From NCBI GenBank assembly GCA_009619075.1, contig WJOY01000013.1:1-42602 (forward strand): 42,602 nt of DNA. Reading direction: 5' to 3'. This document shows positions 1 to 13,408 of the stretch, in pieces. The stretch comes from Dehalococcoidia bacterium. GTDB lineage: Bacteria > Chloroflexota > Dehalococcoidia > GIF9 > AB-539-J10. The position numbers and the translations under genes are program-made. The notes beneath the pieces were generated by a model. That model did no database searches, had not been told where the DNA came from, and saw nothing but the letters and a program-made list of their open reading frames with translations. The stretch's first letter is position 1. The number at the start of each line of letters is the position of its first letter.

Positions 1-141
1 TGAGCAGCGTGGGCTCATTACTAGCTAAAAAACTTGATTATGTTTTCTTTGATACTGGCCTTATGTATCGCGCCTTTACCTGGAAAGCACTTAAATCAGG
101 CATCTCACCTGATAATGAAAACGAACTTTCTCAGCTAGCTT
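1..141 (+). pseudogene. cmk: Truncated 5' fragment of cytidylate kinase (partial duplicate of the cmk at 8722)
   Basis: Translates as SSVGSLLAKKLDYVFFDTGLMYRAFTWKALKSGISPDNENELSQLA, matching intact cmk codons from 8769 on; homology stops at ~140 and the frame then reads out of cmk. The window edge cuts the 5' side. Confidence 0.9.
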
Positions 142-1270
142 CACCCATGACAACGGACTCGTAGGAGTGAGAGCATGGAGGTCCGGTACTGTAGAGCATC
201 TTTCCTTCGGTCAAATCAATGATCATTGAGGTGAGCGTCTCCCACTGTTCATAGGGGTTGAGGCGCTCATCACGATGCCGGCAGATGGAATTAGGATAAC
301 CAAAGTGGTCCTTCAATACATCTTTAATGGTATCCCACTCCAGATTTCCTCTTTTTTCTTGAAAAAGCCGAAACGCCCGATGGCTACGGATCACTGTATC
401 CGGCAACGCGCCTTTCCCTGTATCTTTTACTCGGAGATTTGGAGATTGGAAATGGTTAGCATGAGTGAGAATACCGCTCTTTGGGTAAAGGAAGAACACA
501 TCGTCCGGTGTACATTCTACATCAATGACCTCCCCATCACGATGAGCAATCACCATATTCACAGAATTTGGCCCTTCAAAGGTCATGAGCATTTTTATAC
601 AGTCAGGTAAGCTTTCGGAATTAAGGATGCCTCGGAATTTGATCCAAGTGGGCAAACCCAGTCGAAAGGAGTCATTTTCGCATCGAATGTAGCTGGGAAC
701 AACTCCTATTCCCGCAGAGTTAAACCCTTTTTGGCTGATAATGCCCGCTTCAGTGTGCATGATGATATCGGGTTTCTTCTTTTGATTGATTCGCAAAATA
801 AGGCATAAACTCTCTACCCCGGGCTTATAATCCCAATTCATACCCACAAATGTATGTTGGTTTCGGGTCGCTTCAGGGGCTAGAGCATAGACTGTACATC
901 CCCCCGGAGCAGTCCAAGTTGGAATCGGGGGCATGTAAGCATAGCTCAGCTCGTATCTGGCATTCAAGGCGACGATTTCTTCGAATTGCAACCCAGACCC
1001 TTTAGCCACTCCCTTTAGTTCCTCGAGTATTTCAGGATCCAATTTCTCAATATAGGGGATAAACTTTTGGGCATCCTTTAGAATCTGATCTCGCTTCGCA
1101 CCCCCGAAATATTCCCAGAAGTTCATGTAAAAAAGAACATTTTTTTGAATCGCTTCCTTAGCCTGTCTCCCATGCTGAAATCCCAAATCATAAGGGTTAC
1201 CACTTACAGAGATCACAGGAATATTCATCTTTTTCCCTCCTTTGGTTTTAGCCTTCCACAGCTTTTCCAC
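131..1270 (-). CDS. C45-family acyl-CoA:6-aminopenicillanic acid acyltransferase-like Ntn hydrolase (likely start at MNIPVISVSG, ~1228)
   Basis: ORF 379 aa; GGCTVYAL nucleophile-Cys region, NWDYKPG, GFNSAGIGV and N-terminal GNPYDLGFQHGRQ motifs typical of peptidase C45/AAT proteins. Confidence 0.8.
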   Translation of the reverse strand: MEKLWKAKTKGGKKMNIPVISVSGNPYDLGFQHGRQAKEAIQKNVLFYMNFWEYFGGAKRDQILKDAQKFIPYIEKLDPEILEELKGVAKGSGLQFEEIVALNARYELSYAYMPPIPTWTAPGGCTVYALAPEATRNQHTFVGMNWDYKPGVESLCLILRINQKKKPDIIMHTEAGIISQKGFNSAGIGVVPSYIRCENDSFRLGLPTWIKFRGILNSESLPDCIKMLMTFEGPNSVNMVIAHRDGEVIDVECTPDDVFFLYPKSGILTHANHFQSPNLRVKDTGKGALPDTVIRSHRAFRLFQEKRGNLEWDTIKDVLKDHFGYPNSICRHRDERLNPYEQWETLTSMIIDLTEGKMLYSTGPPCSHSYESVVMGEAS

Positions 1271-1276
1271 ATGTGC

Positions 1277-2014
1277 TTACTTTTGTTTTCCTCTACCTCC
1301 AAGATATGAGAGCCTTACCTCTTCATTTTCTAATAAGCTTTTGCTTTCGCCTTTGAATTTAATTTTACCCATATCCATTACATATCCGCGATGAGAATTA
1401 GCTAGCGCCCTCACGGCATTTTGCTCCACCAGAAGAATTGTTACGCCTTCTTGATTTATTTCTCTTATCGCTTGGAAAAGGCTATCAACTAATTTAGGGG
1501 CAAGGCCGAACGAAGGTTCGTCTAAAAGCAACAGCTTTGGATTCCCCATCAGGGCCCGGCCGATCGATAACATCTGGCGCTCGCCCCCGCTTAGAGTACC
1601 ACCTTTTTGCGATTTTCTTTCTTCCAAACGAGGGAAGAGATGAAAAACTTTTTCACGTATAGTTTTTATCTTGTCCTTGTCTTGCAGTGTCCAAGCGCCT
1701 AAATCGAGATGTTCTTCCACAGTCATATGTGGAAAAATTGCCTTCCCTTGGGGCACATAAGCTACACCCATCTTCGTGACGATGTGGGGTGCACACCCTG
1801 AAATATCCTTCTCTTGGAAAAATATGTTACCTTTCATAGGTTTCAGAAAACCCATTATAGTGTCCAATAAAGTGGTTTTGCCCACTCCATTGCGGCCTAG
1901 AATAGTGGTTATCTCCCCCTGTTTAGCTTCTATAGATAGCTCGTGCAAGATTTCCTTCTTTCCATATCCTGAGCTTAGCTTCTTTGTCTTGATAATATAG
2001 CCATTTTCTTTCAT
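1277..2014 (-). CDS. livF: Branched-chain amino acid-type ABC transporter ATPase (LivF-like)
   Basis: Walker A GRNGVGKTTL, signature LSGGERQML, LLLDEPSFGLAP; start trimmed to MKENGYI. Confidence 0.88.
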   Translation of the reverse strand: MKENGYIIKTKKLSSGYGKKEILHELSIEAKQGEITTILGRNGVGKTTLLDTIMGFLKPMKGNIFFQEKDISGCAPHIVTKMGVAYVPQGKAIFPHMTVEEHLDLGAWTLQDKDKIKTIREKVFHLFPRLEERKSQKGGTLSGGERQMLSIGRALMGNPKLLLLDEPSFGLAPKLVDSLFQAIREINQEGVTILLVEQNAVRALANSHRGYVMDMGKIKFKGESKSLLENEEVRLSYLGGRGKQK

Positions 2015-2045
2015 GTCTTTCCTCTCCAATGAACAAAATAATACA

Positions 2046-2798
2046 TCAAGCCCCAAAATAGACTCGTATTACTTTTTCGTTGTTTTGAACTTCCTTAGGC
2101 GTTCCTTCTGCTATCTTTTCACCAAAATTCAGGCAAATAACCTTATCACAATGTCCCATTATTACATCCATATCATGCTCGACGATAAAAAACGTTTTTC
2201 CCTTCTGGTCACAAAGATTGTGAATAAGCTCTAGTGCTGCCAGTTGCTCGGTTGGATTGATACCTGCTGCTACTTCATCTAATAGCATCACGTCGGCATC
2301 AAACATTAAGATTCTAACTAACTCAAGAAATTTTTGTTGCCCGGTCGATAGTTCACCGGCATAACTATCCTTTTCAGCAACTAAGCCAGCTAACTCAAGT
2401 AGCTCCAGGGCTTTCTCACCTGCATTTCTTTCTCTTAAATTAGCTGCTGTCATTAGGTTTTCTAGCACAGTCATGTTAGGGAATATTCGGATTACCTGCC
2501 AAGTTCTTCCTATGCCTCTTCGCGCAATTTGATAAGGCTTTAGTTTAGTTATATCTTTGCCTCGAAAGAAAACCTTACCCTTATCTGCCCTAAACTGTCC
2601 TGTGATCACATTAAATAACGTGGTTTTCCCAGCTCCGTTCGGTCCGATTAATCCTGTTATTTTACCTTCTTCTATCCATATTGACACATTGTTTAGGGCT
2701 ACGAGGCTTCCAAACTCTTTGGTTACATTTTGAACTTCGAGCACGTTTTTCCCATCTTTCAGCCTTCCTTCCTCATCTCTATCTACCGAGATCATCAT
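2046..2798 (-). CDS. livG: Branched-chain amino acid-type ABC transporter ATPase (LivG-like)
   Basis: GPNGAGKTTLFNVITG, LSTGQQKFLELVR, MLLDEVAAGINPTE, FFIVEHDMDVIM. Confidence 0.88.
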   Translation of the reverse strand: MMISVDRDEEGRLKDGKNVLEVQNVTKEFGSLVALNNVSIWIEEGKITGLIGPNGAGKTTLFNVITGQFRADKGKVFFRGKDITKLKPYQIARRGIGRTWQVIRIFPNMTVLENLMTAANLRERNAGEKALELLELAGLVAEKDSYAGELSTGQQKFLELVRILMFDADVMLLDEVAAGINPTEQLAALELIHNLCDQKGKTFFIVEHDMDVIMGHCDKVICLNFGEKIAEGTPKEVQNNEKVIRVYFGA

Positions 2799-2833
2799 TA
2801 CACCTCCTTTTGAAAAGTTTTGTTACACCACTG

Positions 2834-3814
2834 CTAAATAGCTCTTGTCCTTGGGAGTATCCCCCTGCTCTTGAACCATGTTATTATTCCACCAGGCAGT
2901 AACAAAACTAGCAGTACGATAACAGCTCCGCAGGCCATAAAGTATGTCTCAGGCAAAACTGACCAAAAAAATTCTTCAACGAAAGTCATTATAACAGCAC
3001 CTACTACCGGCCCCCATAGGGTCCCTATACCTCCAAGCAAAACCATTATTATAGGTAAGCTGTTATACCACGCACTAAATGCCGAAGATGGATCAATATA
3101 ATTCTGAAAGGCGAAAAAGACACTAGCTGCCAGCCCAGCGAAAAAGCCACTTATAGCAAAAGCACTGATTTTTTCTTTTGTCGTATTTATCCCTATTGAA
3201 CCCGCCCCTTCCTCATCTTCCCTAATTGCCAGCAGTTTAGCTCCAAAGCTTGAAGTAATTATCTTATAGGCCACAAAGACAGTTGCTGCACTGATGAAAA
3301 ATGCCGAGTAGTACATCGTCAGGTCACTTACAGGTTGGACAAATTGAAATCCGTAACCGCCATGGGTTAGCGGTATAAGATATTCAGTGGTAGCTAGGAC
3401 TGGTGCCGCTAGTAATAAGCACAACATACCTATGGCAAAGTATGAACCCCTCAGCCTCAGCATAAACGAACCTAAAATAAGAGCACCTATCGAGGCAAAA
3501 ACACCTCCGAGCAACCACCCAACCGGCCACCATATTCCGTGATCGATGATAAGAATCGCACTGGCATAACCACCTATCCCGGCAAACACTGAAAAACCGA
3601 AATTTATATAGCCAGTGAAACCGGTCATAATATTCCAGGCTTCGGCATAGGCTATATATATAAACATTAGAAAAACTACGCTACATAAATATGGACTCAC
3701 TATGCGAGGCAAGGCTATGAGTAATGCTACCACGATAACTGCTATAGCATAGAGCCACAATCTTTTATCTGTTTTGAATTTTTCTGCTAATCTTAGTTTA
3801 TCACTCTTATTCAA
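2834..3814 (-). CDS. livM: Branched-chain amino acid-type ABC transporter permease (LivM-like)
   Basis: Multi-TM protein with AEAWNIMTGFTGYINFGFSVFAGIGGYASA and GGIGTLWGPVVGA motifs. Confidence 0.87.
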   Translation of the reverse strand: MNKSDKLRLAEKFKTDKRLWLYAIAVIVVALLIALPRIVSPYLCSVVFLMFIYIAYAEAWNIMTGFTGYINFGFSVFAGIGGYASAILIIDHGIWWPVGWLLGGVFASIGALILGSFMLRLRGSYFAIGMLCLLLAAPVLATTEYLIPLTHGGYGFQFVQPVSDLTMYYSAFFISAATVFVAYKIITSSFGAKLLAIREDEEGAGSIGINTTKEKISAFAISGFFAGLAASVFFAFQNYIDPSSAFSAWYNSLPIIMVLLGGIGTLWGPVVGAVIMTFVEEFFWSVLPETYFMACGAVIVLLVLLLPGGIITWFKSRGILPRTRAI

Positions 3815-3854
3815 GCAGCACTCTCCTTTCTGGAAAATTACGATAACAACTTGC

Positions 3855-4721
3855 TTAGTCCACCCGTTCTACCACTCCCCATAAGCCTTGGGGTCTAAAG
3901 ATAAAAACTGCTATGACCGTTAGGGGCGCAATAACGCCAGCTATCGTTGCCCCCCAATACATGGTCCCCACACTTTCAGCTATGCCTAAAAATACTCCGC
4001 CTAAAAGAGCCCCCGGGAGGCTTCCTAGCCCTCCCAACGCTACCATAGCAAAACATTTCAGGATAAGGATCTGACCAATGGAAGGGTAAATAGCCCATTG
4101 AATGGCAATTAAACCTCCGGCAATGCCAGCCAAAGCCCCTCCCATAGCATAGCTAAGGAGCCTGATTCTATGTATGTTAATGCCACTTATTAAAGCAACG
4201 CGCGGATTTTGTGATGCTGCTCTCAATGCTTTTCCAATTCTTGTCCATTTCAGAGACGCAAAAAGCACACCGGCTATAATGAGAGCAACTACAAAGCATA
4301 TAATCTTATTTACGGAAAGGTAACTACCCAGGAAACCTATTGAACCGGTAGGATAATTAACCGATCTAAACGTGCTGCCAAAAGCAAATTCACTAAAGTT
4401 CCATAAAAAGATTGCAAGGCCGAAGGTTAATACACGGGATAGTAACGGAAATTTACCAACTACTCTAAATATAGCTACTTTGTAAAGAAAGGCTGCAAGG
4501 GCAGCTATAACAAGCATTGCAACGAACGTTGCCCCAATTGGGTTCATCCCTAGCAAAAACCACAGCCAAAAACAGGTAAAAGCACCCAACATGAGAAATT
4601 CACCATGTACCAAGTTAATGATTCTCATTATTCCAAATATCAAGCTTAGCCCCATTGCCCCTAAACCATAAACACTTCCCAACAATATTCCTTCGACAAG
4701 AGCTATAATTAACAGTTCCAT
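3855..4721 (-). CDS. livH: Branched-chain amino acid-type ABC transporter permease (LivH-like)
   Basis: GILLGSVYGLGAMGLSLIFGIMRIINLVHGEFLMLGAF; MVALGGLGSLPGALLGG. Confidence 0.87.
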   Translation of the reverse strand: MELLIIALVEGILLGSVYGLGAMGLSLIFGIMRIINLVHGEFLMLGAFTCFWLWFLLGMNPIGATFVAMLVIAALAAFLYKVAIFRVVGKFPLLSRVLTFGLAIFLWNFSEFAFGSTFRSVNYPTGSIGFLGSYLSVNKIICFVVALIIAGVLFASLKWTRIGKALRAASQNPRVALISGINIHRIRLLSYAMGGALAGIAGGLIAIQWAIYPSIGQILILKCFAMVALGGLGSLPGALLGGVFLGIAESVGTMYWGATIAGVIAPLTVIAVFIFRPQGLWGVVERVD

Positions 4722-4733
4722 AAACGCACCTCC

Positions 4734-4781
4734 CCTATTAACAAATAAGATTCTGCACGCAGAATCTTATTTGTTAATAGG
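4734..4781. repeat. 48-bp near-perfect palindrome (23-nt arms, 2-nt centre) between livK and livH
   Basis: CCTATTAACAAATAAGATTCTGC-AC-GCAGAATCTTATTTGTTAATAGG; arms are exact reverse complements. Confidence 0.95.
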
Positions 4782-4850
4782 AACTTGACTTACTTCCTCA
4801 GCTAGCAACGACCCCATTCTATCCCATCATAAGTATATAAGATTACATCT

Positions 4851-6158
4851 TTAGTCCCAGCCGGGGTGTGGCCAGATTGGCTCTGCTGTGGCAAGTTCGT
4901 AAGGATATATAACTTCTTTTACCCAATCGCCTATTATAACTTGACCAGGTGGATACTCGACCCCCACTTTCTTCGGTTGCCATTGAATTAAAAGTCCCTT
5001 GGACGCAGTTTGGAATCCCGAATCCGGTGAATCAAGTGGCAGTACTTTATATGGTCCGTAGACAGTCTCAACCTCCATCTCAAACAAGGTATCTCTAATA
5101 GCTTCCTTATCAATCGCACCGACCTCCTTTACAGCTATCTCCATAAGTTGGCCCGCTAGATAACCAAAAGTGGTGTGGTACTCATGTTTTTCCGGTGGAA
5201 GACCCGCTATCCTATAAGTGGCCTCCAGATATTCCTCGTTGCCTGGTGTATCAAGTATTCCTTCCCAAAGTGACTCACAACACATAGCGTAGCAGGCATC
5301 TCCTACGGCCTCAACATAAGTAGGCGCTCCAGCTCCGACGGTCCAAACAAAAATCCCTGCATCTGCCTTGAGTGCCTGAGCAGCTTTTGTAAGCCCTATT
5401 GAGTCAGGTTCATATCCTCCGATTCCTACGACATCCGGTTTTGCCGCCATAGCTTTAGTTAGAATAGGCGTCCAGTCTGTTATTCCTTTTGGATATGCCT
5501 CACATAATACGACTTCTATTCCCTTCGCTTCCAATTGACCGCGGAAGGAATTCATTAGAGATATCGGAAAGGCTGTGTCCTCATGTATTATGGCTGCAGT
5601 TTTAGCTCCCATTTTAGCAGCTATATCAGCCACTCCCGGGAAGTATTCATCTGTTGGCTGCATCCCTTGGACCATCCATTGTAGATTATTCCCTCCCCAT
5701 ATTCCGGGGTCAGAGGCCCCACATGATGCAGTTGGCATTTCATATCTTTCTACCACGGTAGAAATGGCTTTAGCGATAGCACTACTATAGGGGCCAAAGC
5801 ACAGATCTACTTTGTCTTCTGTAATTAATTTGTGGTATAATTTTACCCCTGTAGCAGGATCACTTTTATCATCGTAAATTATGACTTCTACCGGCCTCCC
5901 ATCTATAAGTCCTGGTTCAGTATGCCCACACCATTCCAAACCCGAACTATAACCTCTTTCATTTACCTGTGTTTGCCATACGAGGAGACCTTCTTTATAT
6001 CGCTCTCCCGTCCATGAATATTTCCCTGTTAGGGCAAGAGAGCAACCTATCTTGATGGGCTCCACCTCCTCCTTAGGTGGTGCACAACCAGGTAGGACAA
6101 ATGCTGCTACCAACACCACAGCCAATCCCAAAACCAATACTAACTTAACCTTCTTCAT
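4851..6158 (-). CDS. ABC transporter substrate-binding lipoprotein, LivK/type 1 periplasmic-binding fold
   Basis: Lipoprotein signal MKKVKLVLVLGLAVVLVAAFVLPGC; IKIGCSLALTGKYSWTGERYKEG; adjacent to liv permeases and ATPases. Confidence 0.87.
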   Translation of the reverse strand: MKKVKLVLVLGLAVVLVAAFVLPGCAPPKEEVEPIKIGCSLALTGKYSWTGERYKEGLLVWQTQVNERGYSSGLEWCGHTEPGLIDGRPVEVIIYDDKSDPATGVKLYHKLITEDKVDLCFGPYSSAIAKAISTVVERYEMPTASCGASDPGIWGGNNLQWMVQGMQPTDEYFPGVADIAAKMGAKTAAIIHEDTAFPISLMNSFRGQLEAKGIEVVLCEAYPKGITDWTPILTKAMAAKPDVVGIGGYEPDSIGLTKAAQALKADAGIFVWTVGAGAPTYVEAVGDACYAMCCESLWEGILDTPGNEEYLEATYRIAGLPPEKHEYHTTFGYLAGQLMEIAVKEVGAIDKEAIRDTLFEMEVETVYGPYKVLPLDSPDSGFQTASKGLLIQWQPKKVGVEYPPGQVIIGDWVKEVIYPYELATAEPIWPHPGWD

Positions 6159-6324
6159 TCTCTTCTCCTTTTACTTTTTATTTAACTTCTTACCTCTTAT
6201 TACATCCCAAACTATCTAACCTATAGGCACCACCTCCTTTGCCACTTTTCCTTATTGCCCTAAGCTAAATTCTGTTTATAATATCTGCATCTATAATAAA
6301 ACCACTATAATATCTCTACCTAGA

Positions 6325-6625
6325 ATAATTTGTCAATACCTCGAAGGCTCTATACGGCTCCAAAACTGATAGCCTCGTCTACGCCATCAGAGCCCCAACC
6401 ACAGTAATTAATCCAACCAATCCGATAAGTATGGCAAACGACGGTCCTATTGCTGAGATTACTGACGCTTTAAGTCAGGTTCTAAGTCGACTCTCGGTAA
6501 TACCCATTTGCCTTCCTGTACTGAGTGCTTTAGGCAGGAATATGATTGTCCGCAAGAAAACAACAGCCACGGCCATCTCCCTCACTATCCAGAACCCAAA
6601 TTTATTGGCACTTCTAAATATCCAT
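6325..6625 (-). pseudogene. Decayed membrane protein, DUF5058-like C-terminal region
   Basis: Minus-strand reading NKFGFWIVREMAVAVVFLRTIIFLPKALSTGRQMGITESRLRT*LKASVISAIGPSFAILIGLVGLITVVGALMA*TRLSVLE, with an in-frame TGA and TAG. Family assigned from memory of motif style. Confidence 0.5.
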
Positions 6626-6721
6626 TAGCCACTTTCTACCTCTTGACTTGGCATTAATTTGTGCCGTGTTTAATCTTTCAATATTATCTTTCGCAAATCT
6701 CTTGTCTTTCCCTCCAAGTTG

Positions 6722-7936
6722 CTATTTTAGGTAGTTAATTGCAAGAGCAATGTAATACTTAACAGAATCTATAACCTGCGATATTTCTACATATTCATTT
6801 GGCTTGTGGCTACGGCTGGGGTCACCTGGTCCATAAATAATCATTGGGATATATTTTTCCTTTTCGAATGAAACACCATCGGTGTAATAATACACCCCAG
6901 CTGGACCAATTTCTTTGCCAAAAACCTGTTTGTAGGTATTAAAAGCTACTTTGGTGAATTCATCACCCATACTCGTTTCAATTGGTGGGTAATTGTTCAG
7001 AGGTTCTACGTCAATGCGACAGGTCCCATCTTCCTTTCTCATTTTGTCCAAAATTTCATGGATATCAGCCATGACTTTGTCATGTGATATGCCTGGCACC
7101 GTTCTTATATCAACGGTAGCTTCACACTTCTCGGGAAGGACATTAGTATTTCTTCCAGCATGCATAGTTGTTATGCTCATAGAAGGGCTGCTCAGCAAGG
7201 GGTGCTCTTGCACTTGGAACTCATAATGTCGGAAGGTTTCAAAAAATTTGAGCATGTGAAGCAATGCATTAATCCCTTCTTTTGGAAGCCCACCATGGGC
7301 TGTCTTCCCATATGAAGTAAATTTAAGCCAAAAGGCGCCCTTTTCTGCCACGTAGATCTTTCTTTCACTGGCCTCACTAATAGCCAAAGCATCGATGTCA
7401 TCTACTCCATATTTCTTTACATATGCTTTACTTCCATAGCAGTCAACCTCTTCACTGGCAGTGTTTACAAATGTCAGAGTTCCATTCAGCTTAATTCCTG
7501 CTTTCTTCAAAAGACACATTGCCATTATCATAGCAGCATCGCCGGCCTTCATATCACTTGTGCCACGCCCGTACATTAGATCCCCTTCAATCTCCGCCCC
7601 AAATGGATCATGCTCCCAGTTCTGCTTCGTTGCCGGCACTACATCTAAGTGGCCACTGTACACAAGATTTGGTCTCGGTTCAGCTCCGCTTAATTTCGCG
7701 ATGAGGTTCGCCCGATTCACTCCTTCCAGATCATCAATTTGCGGACTAAATCCATACTCTTTAAATTTTTTTCCGACTATTAAGGCTACGTCCTTTTCAT
7801 TTCCTGGTGGATTAGAACTGTTCACCTTAATCAGTTCGGCAAGAAAATCGATAACTTCCTGCTTATTCATTAGACCTACACACTGCCTATATGTATCTTC
7901 ACTCGAATAATTTCCCATTGTACACACTCCTTTCAA
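6722..7936 (-). CDS. M20-family metallopeptidase / ArgE-DapE-type deacylase
   Basis: SGHLDVVPATKQNWEHDPFGAEIEGDLMYGRGTSDMKAG, ASEEVDCYGSKA, YGPGDPSRSHKPNEYV. Confidence 0.88.
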   Translation of the reverse strand: MKGVCTMGNYSSEDTYRQCVGLMNKQEVIDFLAELIKVNSSNPPGNEKDVALIVGKKFKEYGFSPQIDDLEGVNRANLIAKLSGAEPRPNLVYSGHLDVVPATKQNWEHDPFGAEIEGDLMYGRGTSDMKAGDAAMIMAMCLLKKAGIKLNGTLTFVNTASEEVDCYGSKAYVKKYGVDDIDALAISEASERKIYVAEKGAFWLKFTSYGKTAHGGLPKEGINALLHMLKFFETFRHYEFQVQEHPLLSSPSMSITTMHAGRNTNVLPEKCEATVDIRTVPGISHDKVMADIHEILDKMRKEDGTCRIDVEPLNNYPPIETSMGDEFTKVAFNTYKQVFGKEIGPAGVYYYTDGVSFEKEKYIPMIIYGPGDPSRSHKPNEYVEISQVIDSVKYYIALAINYLK

Positions 7937-8009
7937 CTATCTAAACTCCTTATATAGGCCCGCTCAGGTTGAGAGCGAACCTATATATCAAAGAGGCCTG
8001 ATATGGGCA

Positions 8010-8480
8010 TTAATTGTACACGTTCATATGATTAGTGACACCCCACCTCCTTTCTTTAAACTGCTGTGATGTGAGGTGTCCCACTGCCTGGTGAGGTCGG
8101 ATAGTATTATACACCTTCTCCCATTTCAGCAAAGCTCGATTCAGCTCCAGTATCTCGAAACTGACATCCGTTACTTCGTAAAACTCCTCGGTGTGTGTCC
8201 TTTGTGCTCTCTCCAGATGGCCATTGAGTTTGAGTGAGTGTGGTGGGCAAGACGAATAACTTAATACCTCTTCGCTGACCCTCCTTCTTAAATGCGTCTT
8301 GAAATTCTGAACTCCCATCTACCTGGATAACCCTGATAGGAAAGGACATTCACTCTAACAGGGTATCAATGAATTCAGAGGCGGTGGCGAGGCTTGCTCT
8401 ACTATGAGCCTCCAGTACATCCCAGCCCAGCCCAGCCTTCTTGGATAGCTTGGGGATGCTCGACAGACGTCTATATCCCG
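8010..8480 (-). pseudogene. Degraded DDE integrase-core transposase remnant (IS481/IS3-like)
   Basis: Minus strand: GLGWDVLEAHSRASLATASEFIDTLLE*MSFPIRVIQVDGSSEFQDAFKKEGQRRGIKLFVLP, then frameshift to LNGHLERAQRTHTEEFYEVTD...LLKWEKVYNTIRPHQAVGHLTSQQF; in-frame stop plus frameshift. Confidence 0.8.
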
Positions 8481-8721
8481 GAATTGTACTATAGACATTC
8501 ATAATACAACCATTATAGCGCCCTTTCATAAGTCATGTGTCACCTATCTATCTGAACAAGATCACTTGTGCCACAGTGGTATGTAGCTGTATTCTAAGTC
8601 TGCTCTGGGGTCTGATAGCTGTTTTTGGTGCAGCTCAATGTTAGCGCTGCAAGCTCACTGCTTGGATATGATTCCTTAAAACTTTAAAAGCCAAACCCAG
8701 GATGATAAGATAGGAAACAAT

Positions 8722-9393
8722 TTGAAGTTGTCGCTAATTGCCATAGATGGCCCGGTAGCAGTAGGCAAGAGCAGTGTGGGCTCATTACTAGCTAAAAAAC
8801 TTGATTATGTTTTCTTTGATACTGGCCTTATGTATCGCGCCTTTACCTGGAAAGCACTTAAATTTGGCATTCCTCCCACCAATGAAAAAGAGCTTTCTCA
8901 ACTAGCTGGTATAACTAAATTTGATTTCGTTTCACACCAAGAAGGATATCTCTTCCCTCTTATTGATGGTGAAGATGTTTCTGCTGAGCTACTTTGCCCC
9001 GAGATAGAGGAGCAAGTTTCCTTGATATCGAAGGTAGCCGGGGTGCGCCAGATGATGGTATCAGAACAGCAGGTGGTAGCCCGGCGAGGGAAAGTGATAA
9101 TGGCAGGCAGAGACATTGGCACGGTGGTTTTACCTTGGGCGGAACTAAAGATTTTCTTGGTTGCTTCTGTCAAAGAGAGAGCTAATCGCAGGTATAAGGA
9201 ATTGCTGGAGCGAGGAGAGAAGGTAGATTACGATGCTACCCTTGCTGACCTCAAGAGACGAGATGGCATTGATACCCACCGCACTATTTCACCACTTAAG
9301 CCTGCTGCCAATGCTATAATCATTGATACAGAAAAACTTAGCCTAAAGCAAGTTGTGGATAAAATATATAATTTGGCGGCCAAACTTAGCTAG
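8722..9393 (+). CDS. cmk: Cytidylate kinase (TTG start)
   Basis: IAIDGPVAVGKSSVGSLLAKKL, AGRDIGTVVLPWAELKIFL, LADLKRRDGIDTHRTISPLKPA. Confidence 0.95.
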   Translation: MKLSLIAIDGPVAVGKSSVGSLLAKKLDYVFFDTGLMYRAFTWKALKFGIPPTNEKELSQLAGITKFDFVSHQEGYLFPLIDGEDVSAELLCPEIEEQVSLISKVAGVRQMMVSEQQVVARRGKVIMAGRDIGTVVLPWAELKIFLVASVKERANRRYKELLERGEKVDYDATLADLKRRDGIDTHRTISPLKPAANAIIIDTEKLSLKQVVDKIYNLAAKLS

Positions 9394-9438: not shown

Positions 9439-9486
9439 GTAGTGCGAGGCTTTAGCCTCGTGCACGACCCTAAAGGGTCGCACTAC
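9439..9486. repeat. Three-way-junction palindromic repeat (outer stem plus two 6-bp hairpins)
   Basis: GTAGTG-[CGAGGC TTTA GCCTCG]-TGCA-[CGACCC TAAA GGGTCG]-CACTAC. Confidence 0.9.
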
Positions 9487-9592
9487 GAAAGTTTTTGCGA
9501 GATCAGGTATTAAAGCTGAGTGAGACAATTCTAGTTTCGTATCGGAGGCAAAATTAAGCAGCCTAAATAGCAACAAAGGGGCGGTTACCCAA

Positions 9593-10234: not shown

Positions 10235-11102
10235 GAAAGCTCGAGAACTTGGCTTATGCTTTGGCGTGAGACGAGCCATCAAACTGTTAAAGGAAGCGGC
10301 AAGCAAATACGGCAATATAGAGACCCTGGGACCAGTAGCGCATAATCAGCAGTTGCTGCAAGCATTGACCAAAGTAGGGATAAAACCGATAGACAACCTA
10401 GAACAGGTTCAAGGCAAAATCCTGGCGGTAACCACCCACGGGGTAAGCCCGCAAGTACTATCTCAAATCGAAGCCCGCCATATCAAATTAGTTGATACTA
10501 CTTGCCCTATAGTTCTCCAGGCTCAAAATGCCACCAAGGAGTTAGCCGATAGTGGCTTTGATGTTATCATCTTCGGGGAGGCAGAGCACCCCGAGGTTAA
10601 AGGATTGCTGGGTTGGGCGGGAAATAAAGGTATCGCTGCTCTTGAGGTAAAACAATTATTAGCTGCTAACAAAACGACGCCATATCGCCTAGGCATCATC
10701 TCTCAAACCACTCAAAGCCACTCTGCCTTCATCGAGTTCATAATACAGCTTATAGCTGCCCTTCCTTCTGTCATTGCGAGCGAAGCGAAGCAATCTCTTA
10801 AGGAAATACGCATCATTAATACCTTATGTCAAGTAATTCAAAAACGCCAGGAAGAGGCTATAAGATTGGCGCAAAAAAACCAGCTTATGATAGTGATCGG
10901 GGGACATGACAGTGCCAATACTAAACGTCTGGCTGAAGCATGCTCACCCCTAGTGGAAACTCATCTGGTGGAAGGAGCAAGTGAGGTGAACCGCTCCTGG
11001 CTTGCAGGTAAACACCATATTGGCATCGTTGCTGGGACATCCACTCCAGATGAGGCTATAGAGGAAGTGGTAGCTAAACTGAAGGCCCTACCGGGGGTTT
11101 AG
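10224..11102 (+). CDS. ispH: 4-hydroxy-3-methylbut-2-enyl diphosphate reductase
   Basis: LGLCFGVRRAI, VDTTCPIV, IINTLCQVIQKRQEEA; three Fe-S Cys motifs; carries in-frame repeat-derived insert PSVIASEAKQSLKE. Confidence 0.93.
   Translation: MEIEKARELGLCFGVRRAIKLLKEAASKYGNIETLGPVAHNQQLLQALTKVGIKPIDNLEQVQGKILAVTTHGVSPQVLSQIEARHIKLVDTTCPIVLQAQNATKELADSGFDVIIFGEAEHPEVKGLLGWAGNKGIAALEVKQLLAANKTTPYRLGIISQTTQSHSAFIEFIIQLIAALPSVIASEAKQSLKEIRIINTLCQVIQKRQEEAIRLAQKNQLMIVIGGHDSANTKRLAEACSPLVETHLVEGASEVNRSWLAGKHHIGIVAGTSTPDEAIEEVVAKLKALPGV
10768..10800 (+). repeat. Short palindromic-family repeat inserted in frame in ispH
   Basis: CTGTCATTGCGAGCGAAGCGAAGCAATCTCTTA; reverse-orientation near-copy in miaB at ~12479-12511. 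Confidence 0.85.
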
Positions 11103-11942: not shown

Positions 11943-12078
11943 TGTCACCCTGAGCCGAAGCCCTGAGCGCAGAGAAGGGAATAGCGAAGGGTCTAGATTC
12001 TTCGCGGAGCCTGTCCTGAGCGGTGTGAGATTCTTTGCTATGCTCAGAATGACGAGGGGCGAAGGGCTCAGAATGACA
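11943..12078. repeat. Compound intergenic palindromic repeat upstream of miaB
   Basis: TGTCACCCTGAGCCGAAG...GAAGGGTCTAGATTCTTCG...CTCAGAATGACGAGGGGCGAAGGGCTCAGAATGACA. Confidence 0.85.
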
Positions 12079-12112: not shown

Positions 12113-13408
12113 ATGTCAAAGTATTTTATCTGGACCATCGGCTGCCAGATGAATAAGGCAGAATCGCTGCGGATAGCTAGCTATCTAGATTTCCTCAGCT
12201 ATCAAGTTGCACCCTCCCTCCGGGAAGCTGACTTAGTAGTGCTCAATACCTGTGTCGTGAGGCAGAGTGCCGAGGATAAAGTTTTGGGCACGTTGGGTTT
12301 GTTGAAAGGGCTAAAAAAGGAGCACCCGAATCTCTCTATACTGGTTACTGGCTGTTTTGTTGATTCCAACATCGCAGGATTGAAGAGAAGATTTCCCCAG
12401 GTTGATTTTTTCTTCAAGCCAGGAGCTTACCCCGAGCTAACTAACTGGGCTCAAAAGCAGGGCATTTCTACCGCTGAGCAAGGATTGCTTCGCTACGCTC
12501 GCAATGACACATGGAAGTCTCCTTCTCCTTGCGCCTTTGTCCCCGTCATCCAGGGTTGCAATAAATTTTGTTCTTACTGTATCGTCCCATACAGGAGAGG
12601 TAGAGAGGTAAGTCGTCCTTTAGAAGAAGTAGTTTGTGAAGTCAAAGGGCTGGTGAAGCAAGGAGTAAGGGAGGTAATTTTGCTGGGGCAGAATGTCGAT
12701 TCTTATGGCCACGATTTGCCTGGCAATCCCGATTTGGCTGATTTGTTAACCAAATTAAATAACATTAACGACTTAGCTAGAATTCGCTTTTTGACTAACC
12801 ATCCTAGAGATATAAGCCAAAGTCTCATTGAAGCTATGGCTTTCCTGGACAAAGTTTGCGAACATTTAGAGCTACCTATTCAGTCAGGCGATGATGATAT
12901 ACTGAAGGCTATGAGGCGAGGGTATACTGTGGAGCAATATCGTAAGCTTATCCACGCTATTCGATATCATATCCCTCAAATATCTTTGAGCACTGACATT
13001 ATCGTTGGCTTTCCCGGGGAAACTGAGGAGCAATTTGAGCATACTTATTCTTTGCTAGAAGAAATGCGGTTTGATGTTGTTCACGTGGCCGCTTATTCTC
13101 CTCGCCCTGGCACCATCGCCGGGAGAAAATATGAAGATACTGTTCCCCCAGAAGTTAAGAGGGAAAGATTTAATAAAATTGAACAACTCCAGGCAAATAT
13201 AGCTACTGAACTAAACTCCGCTTACCGAGGCAAGACAATGGAGGTATTAGTGGAAGGTGAGAGGAAAGGAAAGTGGTATGGACGCACCAGAAGTGATAAG
13301 CTAGTATTCTTTGAAAACAAGGATGATTGCACAGGGCAACTGGTGAAAATCAGGATTGAGAAAACAAGCCCTTGGGCACTGCAGGGCAAGGTTGGATATA
13401 ATAGCTAA
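12113..13408 (+). CDS. miaB: tRNA-2-methylthio-N6-dimethylallyladenosine synthase (MiaB)
   Basis: TIGCQMNKAESLRIA, radical SAM GCNKFCSYCIVPYRRGREVSR, TRAM-like C-terminus; contains repeat-derived EQGLLRYARNDT insert. Confidence 0.93.
   Translation: MSKYFIWTIGCQMNKAESLRIASYLDFLSYQVAPSLREADLVVLNTCVVRQSAEDKVLGTLGLLKGLKKEHPNLSILVTGCFVDSNIAGLKRRFPQVDFFFKPGAYPELTNWAQKQGISTAEQGLLRYARNDTWKSPSPCAFVPVIQGCNKFCSYCIVPYRRGREVSRPLEEVVCEVKGLVKQGVREVILLGQNVDSYGHDLPGNPDLADLLTKLNNINDLARIRFLTNHPRDISQSLIEAMAFLDKVCEHLELPIQSGDDDILKAMRRGYTVEQYRKLIHAIRYHIPQISLSTDIIVGFPGETEEQFEHTYSLLEEMRFDVVHVAAYSPRPGTIAGRKYEDTVPPEVKRERFNKIEQLQANIATELNSAYRGKTMEVLVEGERKGKWYGRTRSDKLVFFENKDDCTGQLVKIRIEKTSPWALQGKVGYNS
12479..12511 (-). 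repeat. Short palindromic-family repeat inserted in frame in miaB (opposite orientation to the ispH copy)
   Basis: Reverse complement GTCATTGCGAGCGTAGCGAAGCAATCCTT vs ispH GTCATTGCGAGCGAAGCGAAGCAATCTCT. Confidence 0.85.

Follow-up and report, generated by a model that had tools for sequence, protein, structure and literature searches.

Apparent replacement of a Liv-type transporter operon beside an intact cmk gene in an uncultured Dehalococcoidia genome

The window analysed here (42,602 bases) is the whole of one contig (C15) of a MAG (G000; 936 kb in 47 contigs, 68% complete), with position 1 at the contig end. A first-pass annotation had described a minus-strand transport and hydrolase cluster with a transposase remnant, lying between two copies of the 5' part of cmk, the right one intact. 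We find exactly this gene content: a C45 family hydrolase, livF, livG, livM, livH, a Liv-type substrate-binding protein (SBP), an M20 family deacylase and an IS481-type remnant, followed by an intact cmk ORF (Table 1). Base composition is not decisive, with a GC content of ~40-46% in the segment vs 45% in the rest of the contig. GC at third codon positions (GC3) is lower in the liv and M20 genes (0.35-0.42) than in cmk and three genes measured downstream of it (0.41-0.48).

Table 1. Features at the left end of the window
Feature	Coordinates	Strand	Remarks
Left cmk fragment, host-type part	2..97	+	94/96 to right cmk, 93/96 to G002, 62-75/96 to other genera
Left cmk fragment, foreign-type part	98..140	+	38/43 to G019 cmk vs 32/43 to right cmk
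C45 family autoproteolytic acyltransferase/hydrolase	131..1270	-	Pfam AAT, NCBIfam NF040521; practically complete, last codons overlap the cmk fragment
livF-like ATPase	1277..2056	-	Profile match
livG-like ATPase	2046..2798	-	Profile match
livM-like permease	2834..3814	-	Profile match
livH-like permease	3855..4721	-	Profile match
Perfect hairpin between SBP and livH	4734..4781		23-bp arms, 2-nt loop; attenuator or terminator-like
Liv-type substrate-binding lipoprotein (SBP)	4851..6158	-	Peripla_BP_6; body foreign, signal peptide native-like
Native signal-peptide codons, 5'UTR and promoter	6078..6340	-	From the ancestral cmk-adjacent liv operon; TTGACA-18-TATTAT at 6336-6307
Segment absent from both sister species, promoter-cmk gap	6341..8695		2.36 kb; similarity to both G001 and G002 breaks off at ~6340 and returns at 8696
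M20 family ArgE/DapE-type deacylase	6722..7936	-	Profile match
Decayed IS481-family element	8010..8570	-	NF033577 and rve_3 on 8010-8318; terminal inverted repeats; internal deletion of ~0.5 kb
Intact native cmk	8722..9393	+	TTG start, 223 aa; Pfam Cytidylate_kin 1e-68; NCBIfam TIGR00017

The transporter genes have the composition of a HAAT/Liv ABC importer, with an SBP, two BPD_transp_2 permeases and two LivF/LivG-type ATPases in one operon, and their profile scores fall under the LivFGHM and UrtABCDE equivalog cut-offs. The hairpin between the SBP gene and livH could possibly serve as an attenuator that sets SBP expression above that of the permeases. The C45 gene ends at the same residue as its homologues in G018 and in genus g14, to within a few codons. 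These relatives came from a wider genome search; a pattern search of genome and viral contigs, which was too narrow, had returned none. Through guilt by association only, a Liv/HAAT importer combined with the M20 deacylase and the C45 hydrolase suggests that acylated amino acids or peptides are taken up and hydrolysed. The earlier description of the genes as accessory is borne out by their lineage-specific distribution: none of the 392 other genomes of the class that were searched contains a match to the SBP at E<=1e-60, the M20 deacylase has no close relatives among 83 other genomes of the order, and the C45 gene is absent from the sister species. A plasmid source was rejected, plasmid relatives of the M20 and livH genes all showing <60% identity.

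The closest cmk relatives of the window come from MAGs titled Dehalococcoidia or Chloroflexi, and two genomes of the same genus served for comparison, G001 (PCSL01000084.1) and G002 (JAGMBH010000038.1). The right cmk is 97.6% identical in nucleotides to that of G002 and 94.9% to that of G001. Native-type sequence begins at 8696, 26 bp before the start codon (104/105 to G002 over 8696-8800), and the gene order cmk-plsC-ispH-HIT-radical SAM on this flank is shared with G002, the proteins being 95-98% identical. Because the gene is native from upstream of its start, the right cmk, to judge from this alignment, was never interrupted and carries no sign of disruption and rebuilding. The region beyond it holds several short repeats. 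A palindromic intergenic repeat lies 3' of cmk at 9439-9490 (GTAGTGCGAGGCTTTAGCCTCG...), its core also being found directly downstream of cmk in both sister species. A 35-nt dispersed repeat of the ATTGCGAGCGAAGCGAAGCAATC type occurs in inverted orientation at 10761-10795 and 12483-12517, and further short dispersed repeats are present at 12046, 18147, 26249 and 35857.

On the other side of cmk, both G001 and G002 carry a liv operon (F-G-M-H-SBP) divergent from a single intact cmk, with MmgE/PrpD beyond it and no cmk fragment. The gene is likewise uninterrupted in the other relatives examined. As far as gene order in these genomes tells, a liv operon directly upstream of cmk is the normal occupant of this slot in the genus. 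The liv proteins share 69-93% identity between the two sister species and 31-46% with those of the window (34-35% global identity for the cmk-adjacent SBP); by this measure, the window's operon is non-orthologous to theirs. In cmk, the window groups with G002 to the exclusion of G001, and parsimony therefore places the replacement on the window's branch. The native liv operon and MmgE/PrpD were not found elsewhere in the window's genome, a MAG at 68% completeness. In other genera, cmk has different genes upstream (malic enzyme, ThiE/ThiD2 or a carboxyltransferase), so that a variable site, where divergent genes differ by lineage, adjoins a conserved cmk-plsC-ispH block. In G001, a segment of the intergenic region upstream of cmk (L037:8032-8215) is an interspersed repeat near the slot, and it matches dispersed copies on many contigs (C1, C21, C42, C31, C28 and C9) of the window's genome at 75-97% identity.

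Not all of the ancestral operon is missing from the window. Positions 6078-6248, covering the signal-peptide codons of the SBP gene and the 5'UTR, are 79-80% identical in nucleotides to the cmk-adjacent operons of the sister species, and similarity continues more weakly as far as 6340. Paralogous SBP genes match the leader codons only (contig C121 of G002, 86% over 81 bp) or slightly more (contig C26 of G003). The window has thus kept the promoter and leader of the native operon, and the operon body behind them has been replaced. Between this promoter and cmk lies the segment that both sister species lack, with the M20 gene and the IS481 element. The ends of this element are repeated in many genomes of the family. 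Its two parts lie ~560 bp apart in G012 vs 44 in the window, and therefore ~0.5 kb has been deleted from the window's element. No complete IS481 transposase with a DDE core was found between the inverted repeats, only a 102-aa C-terminal fragment (NF033577 positions 207-279 of 284). The element resembles IS481 family insertion sequences in its C-terminal transposase fragment and terminal repeats; unlike them, it is internally deleted, has no complete transposase and offers no unit that would mobilise the segment.

At the far left, positions 2-140 repeat cmk positions 8769-8907 directly, in the same orientation, as first reported (126/139, 91%; E 2e-50), with a start-to-start spacing of 8767. 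This is the sole long direct repeat within the 42.6-kb window, and the assembly holds no further match to it elsewhere. The left copy had been taken to be truncated at an island border. That description holds on the 3' side, where cmk homology is lost at ~140, inside the last codons of the C45 gene, but not on the 5' side, which is the contig end since the window is the entire contig. In frame, the left copy reads SSVGSLLAKKLDYVFFDTGLMYRAFTWKALKSGISPDNENELSQLA. Its mismatches to the right cmk are unevenly spread, with 2 in 2-97 and 11 in 98-140 (Fisher p = 4e-5). When a cmk from another genus (G019) is used as reference, the count is 27/28 for host-informative sites at or before 96 and 7/7 for donor-informative sites at or after 98. 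On these counts, the left copy is a mosaic of host and foreign sequence, in which the foreign part spans only 43 bp.

The mosaic bears on the origin of the repeat. A simple recent tandem duplication was rejected on this ground. Positions 98-140 encode SGISPDNENELSQLA, the type of other genera, where the window's genus carries FGIPPTNEKELSQLA, and for this reason they look like a foreign or older functional allele rather than a decaying copy. A once-functional allele would also be expected from an old tandem duplication of cmk and the operon in which the intact gene later overwrote 2-97 through gene conversion; however, no second copy of other parts of the segment was found in the assembly where searched, and we regard this history as highly improbable. 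Another explanation is an assembly artefact at the contig tip, in which the first ~97 bp are host cmk reads (from a chimeric read or mixed strains) joined to other sequence, such that there is no host-type left copy. The repeat sits at the very tip of the contig, in a MAG of 47 contigs, its first base would alter the codon of the invariant Walker-A lysine, and 88 identical bases stand beside the sharp change at 97/98. Nevertheless, host and donor have no visible shared word at 97/98 for a k-mer join, the right copy is unbroken, and the foreign 98-140 piece would remain a second cmk fragment beside C45 in any case. We consider an artefact rather unlikely, though to be taken seriously: the left fragment is either a scar of operon exchange or else a chimeric contig tip.

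The first-pass annotation had instead proposed integration into cmk, with a functional copy rebuilt at the far end. An element carrying its own cmk 5' end, in the manner of site-specific islands at gene ends, would explain why the 5' part of cmk is directly repeated on both sides of accessory genes with the right copy intact, and a left attachment joint would be expected to show a host-type 5' stub that runs into foreign sequence. Several observations speak against it. First, the slot in both sister species holds a liv operon and no cmk fragment, which comes close to what the annotation itself had named as incompatible with its proposal, namely relatives with the cluster ancestrally upstream of cmk and no duplicated fragment. 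Second, the native promoter and leader (6078-6340) lie inside the supposed island, and the right cmk is native from 8696. Third, no integrase or tyrosine/serine recombinase is encoded among the main ORFs in 131-8349, where the only mobile-element gene is the IS481 fragment. Near-identical direct repeats at both segment ends, as an integrative element would leave, are not seen, the left copy matching at 94/96 and then 32/43. Lastly, the window contains no tRNA or Rfam family, which leaves no classical tRNA-associated island. Since the right cmk and the 26 bp upstream are native, a recombinase is missing and the native promoter lies within, integration with reconstitution is disfavoured, and we see very little chance that it is correct. 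A Campbell-type insertion was considered and set aside; it would leave the 5' half of the right cmk foreign, contrary to what is observed, although a donor with a genus-like cmk start would escape this objection. Recombination at or near cmk, which the annotation had offered beside integration, may have occurred at the left junction, given that the fragment is a host/foreign mosaic, but there the contig ends.

We favour, as the probable though by no means certain account, operon replacement by homologous recombination, with a small insertion as a separate event; the left cmk fragment would represent the other joint of the exchange. The ancestral state would be a Liv-type (branched-chain-amino-acid-type) ABC operon divergent from cmk. 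The operon body, from ~6078 inside the SBP signal-peptide codons leftward, has been swapped for a non-orthologous liv operon and then the C45 gene. With native promoter, 5'UTR and signal peptide kept, the imported transporter would be expressed and exported by host signals. RecA-type homologous recombination is the likely route, and one arm, accounting for the right joint, may have been the leader codons (86% nucleotide identity between paralogous liv SBP genes). The 2.36-kb piece with the M20 deacylase and IS481 remnant would have entered separately between promoter and cmk. For the left joint, the simplest scenario is a crossover from host cmk into a cmk stub of the donor, by which part of cmk was duplicated. 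The purely host-type 5' region of the right cmk counts against this, in that it is not predicted by a simple single crossover with a foreign cmk. The relatives searched yielded no donor locus in which C45 adjoins liv or cmk adjoins C45, and the left arm is consequently deduced from 139 bp at the contig tip; the foreign cmk piece and C45 end have no exact match in viral contigs either. A more specific version, in which SBP signal-peptide codons act as recombination handles with cmk as the other arm, so that whole ABC operons are swapped at a fixed slot under the host's own promoter and export leader and a hybrid cmk stub is left behind, we consider speculative and unlikely.

Operons at a conserved chromosomal slot are known to undergo allelic replacement by homologous recombination. 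The window resembles such cases in that site, orientation and flank are kept while gene content is exchanged between sister species; it differs in that one breakpoint lies inside signal-peptide codons, with promoter and leader retained. For the left joint, a parallel is provided by transformation-induced merodiploidy and tandem duplication, where alternative pairing and interchromatid integration produce a hybrid host/donor repeat together with a duplication (PMC3784515). As hybrid repeats with duplication are known from donor DNA integrated between sister chromatids, the hybrid cmk stub is the natural candidate for the left joint. The hybrid repeat at a joint and the partial duplication are common to both cases, although the duplications in that work cover ~100-900 kb and were tested by genetics (PMC3784515), whereas the window shows only a 139-bp fragment.

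Overall, the locus is best read as ordinary genome plasticity. It is also a warning that accessory genes next to a repeat at a contig tip need not imply an island inserted into an essential gene. In small-genome uncultured Dehalococcoidia, an uptake operon would be exchangeable with the host's promoter and lipoprotein signal left in place, and if this is general, it may allow rapid change of substrate range without new regulation.
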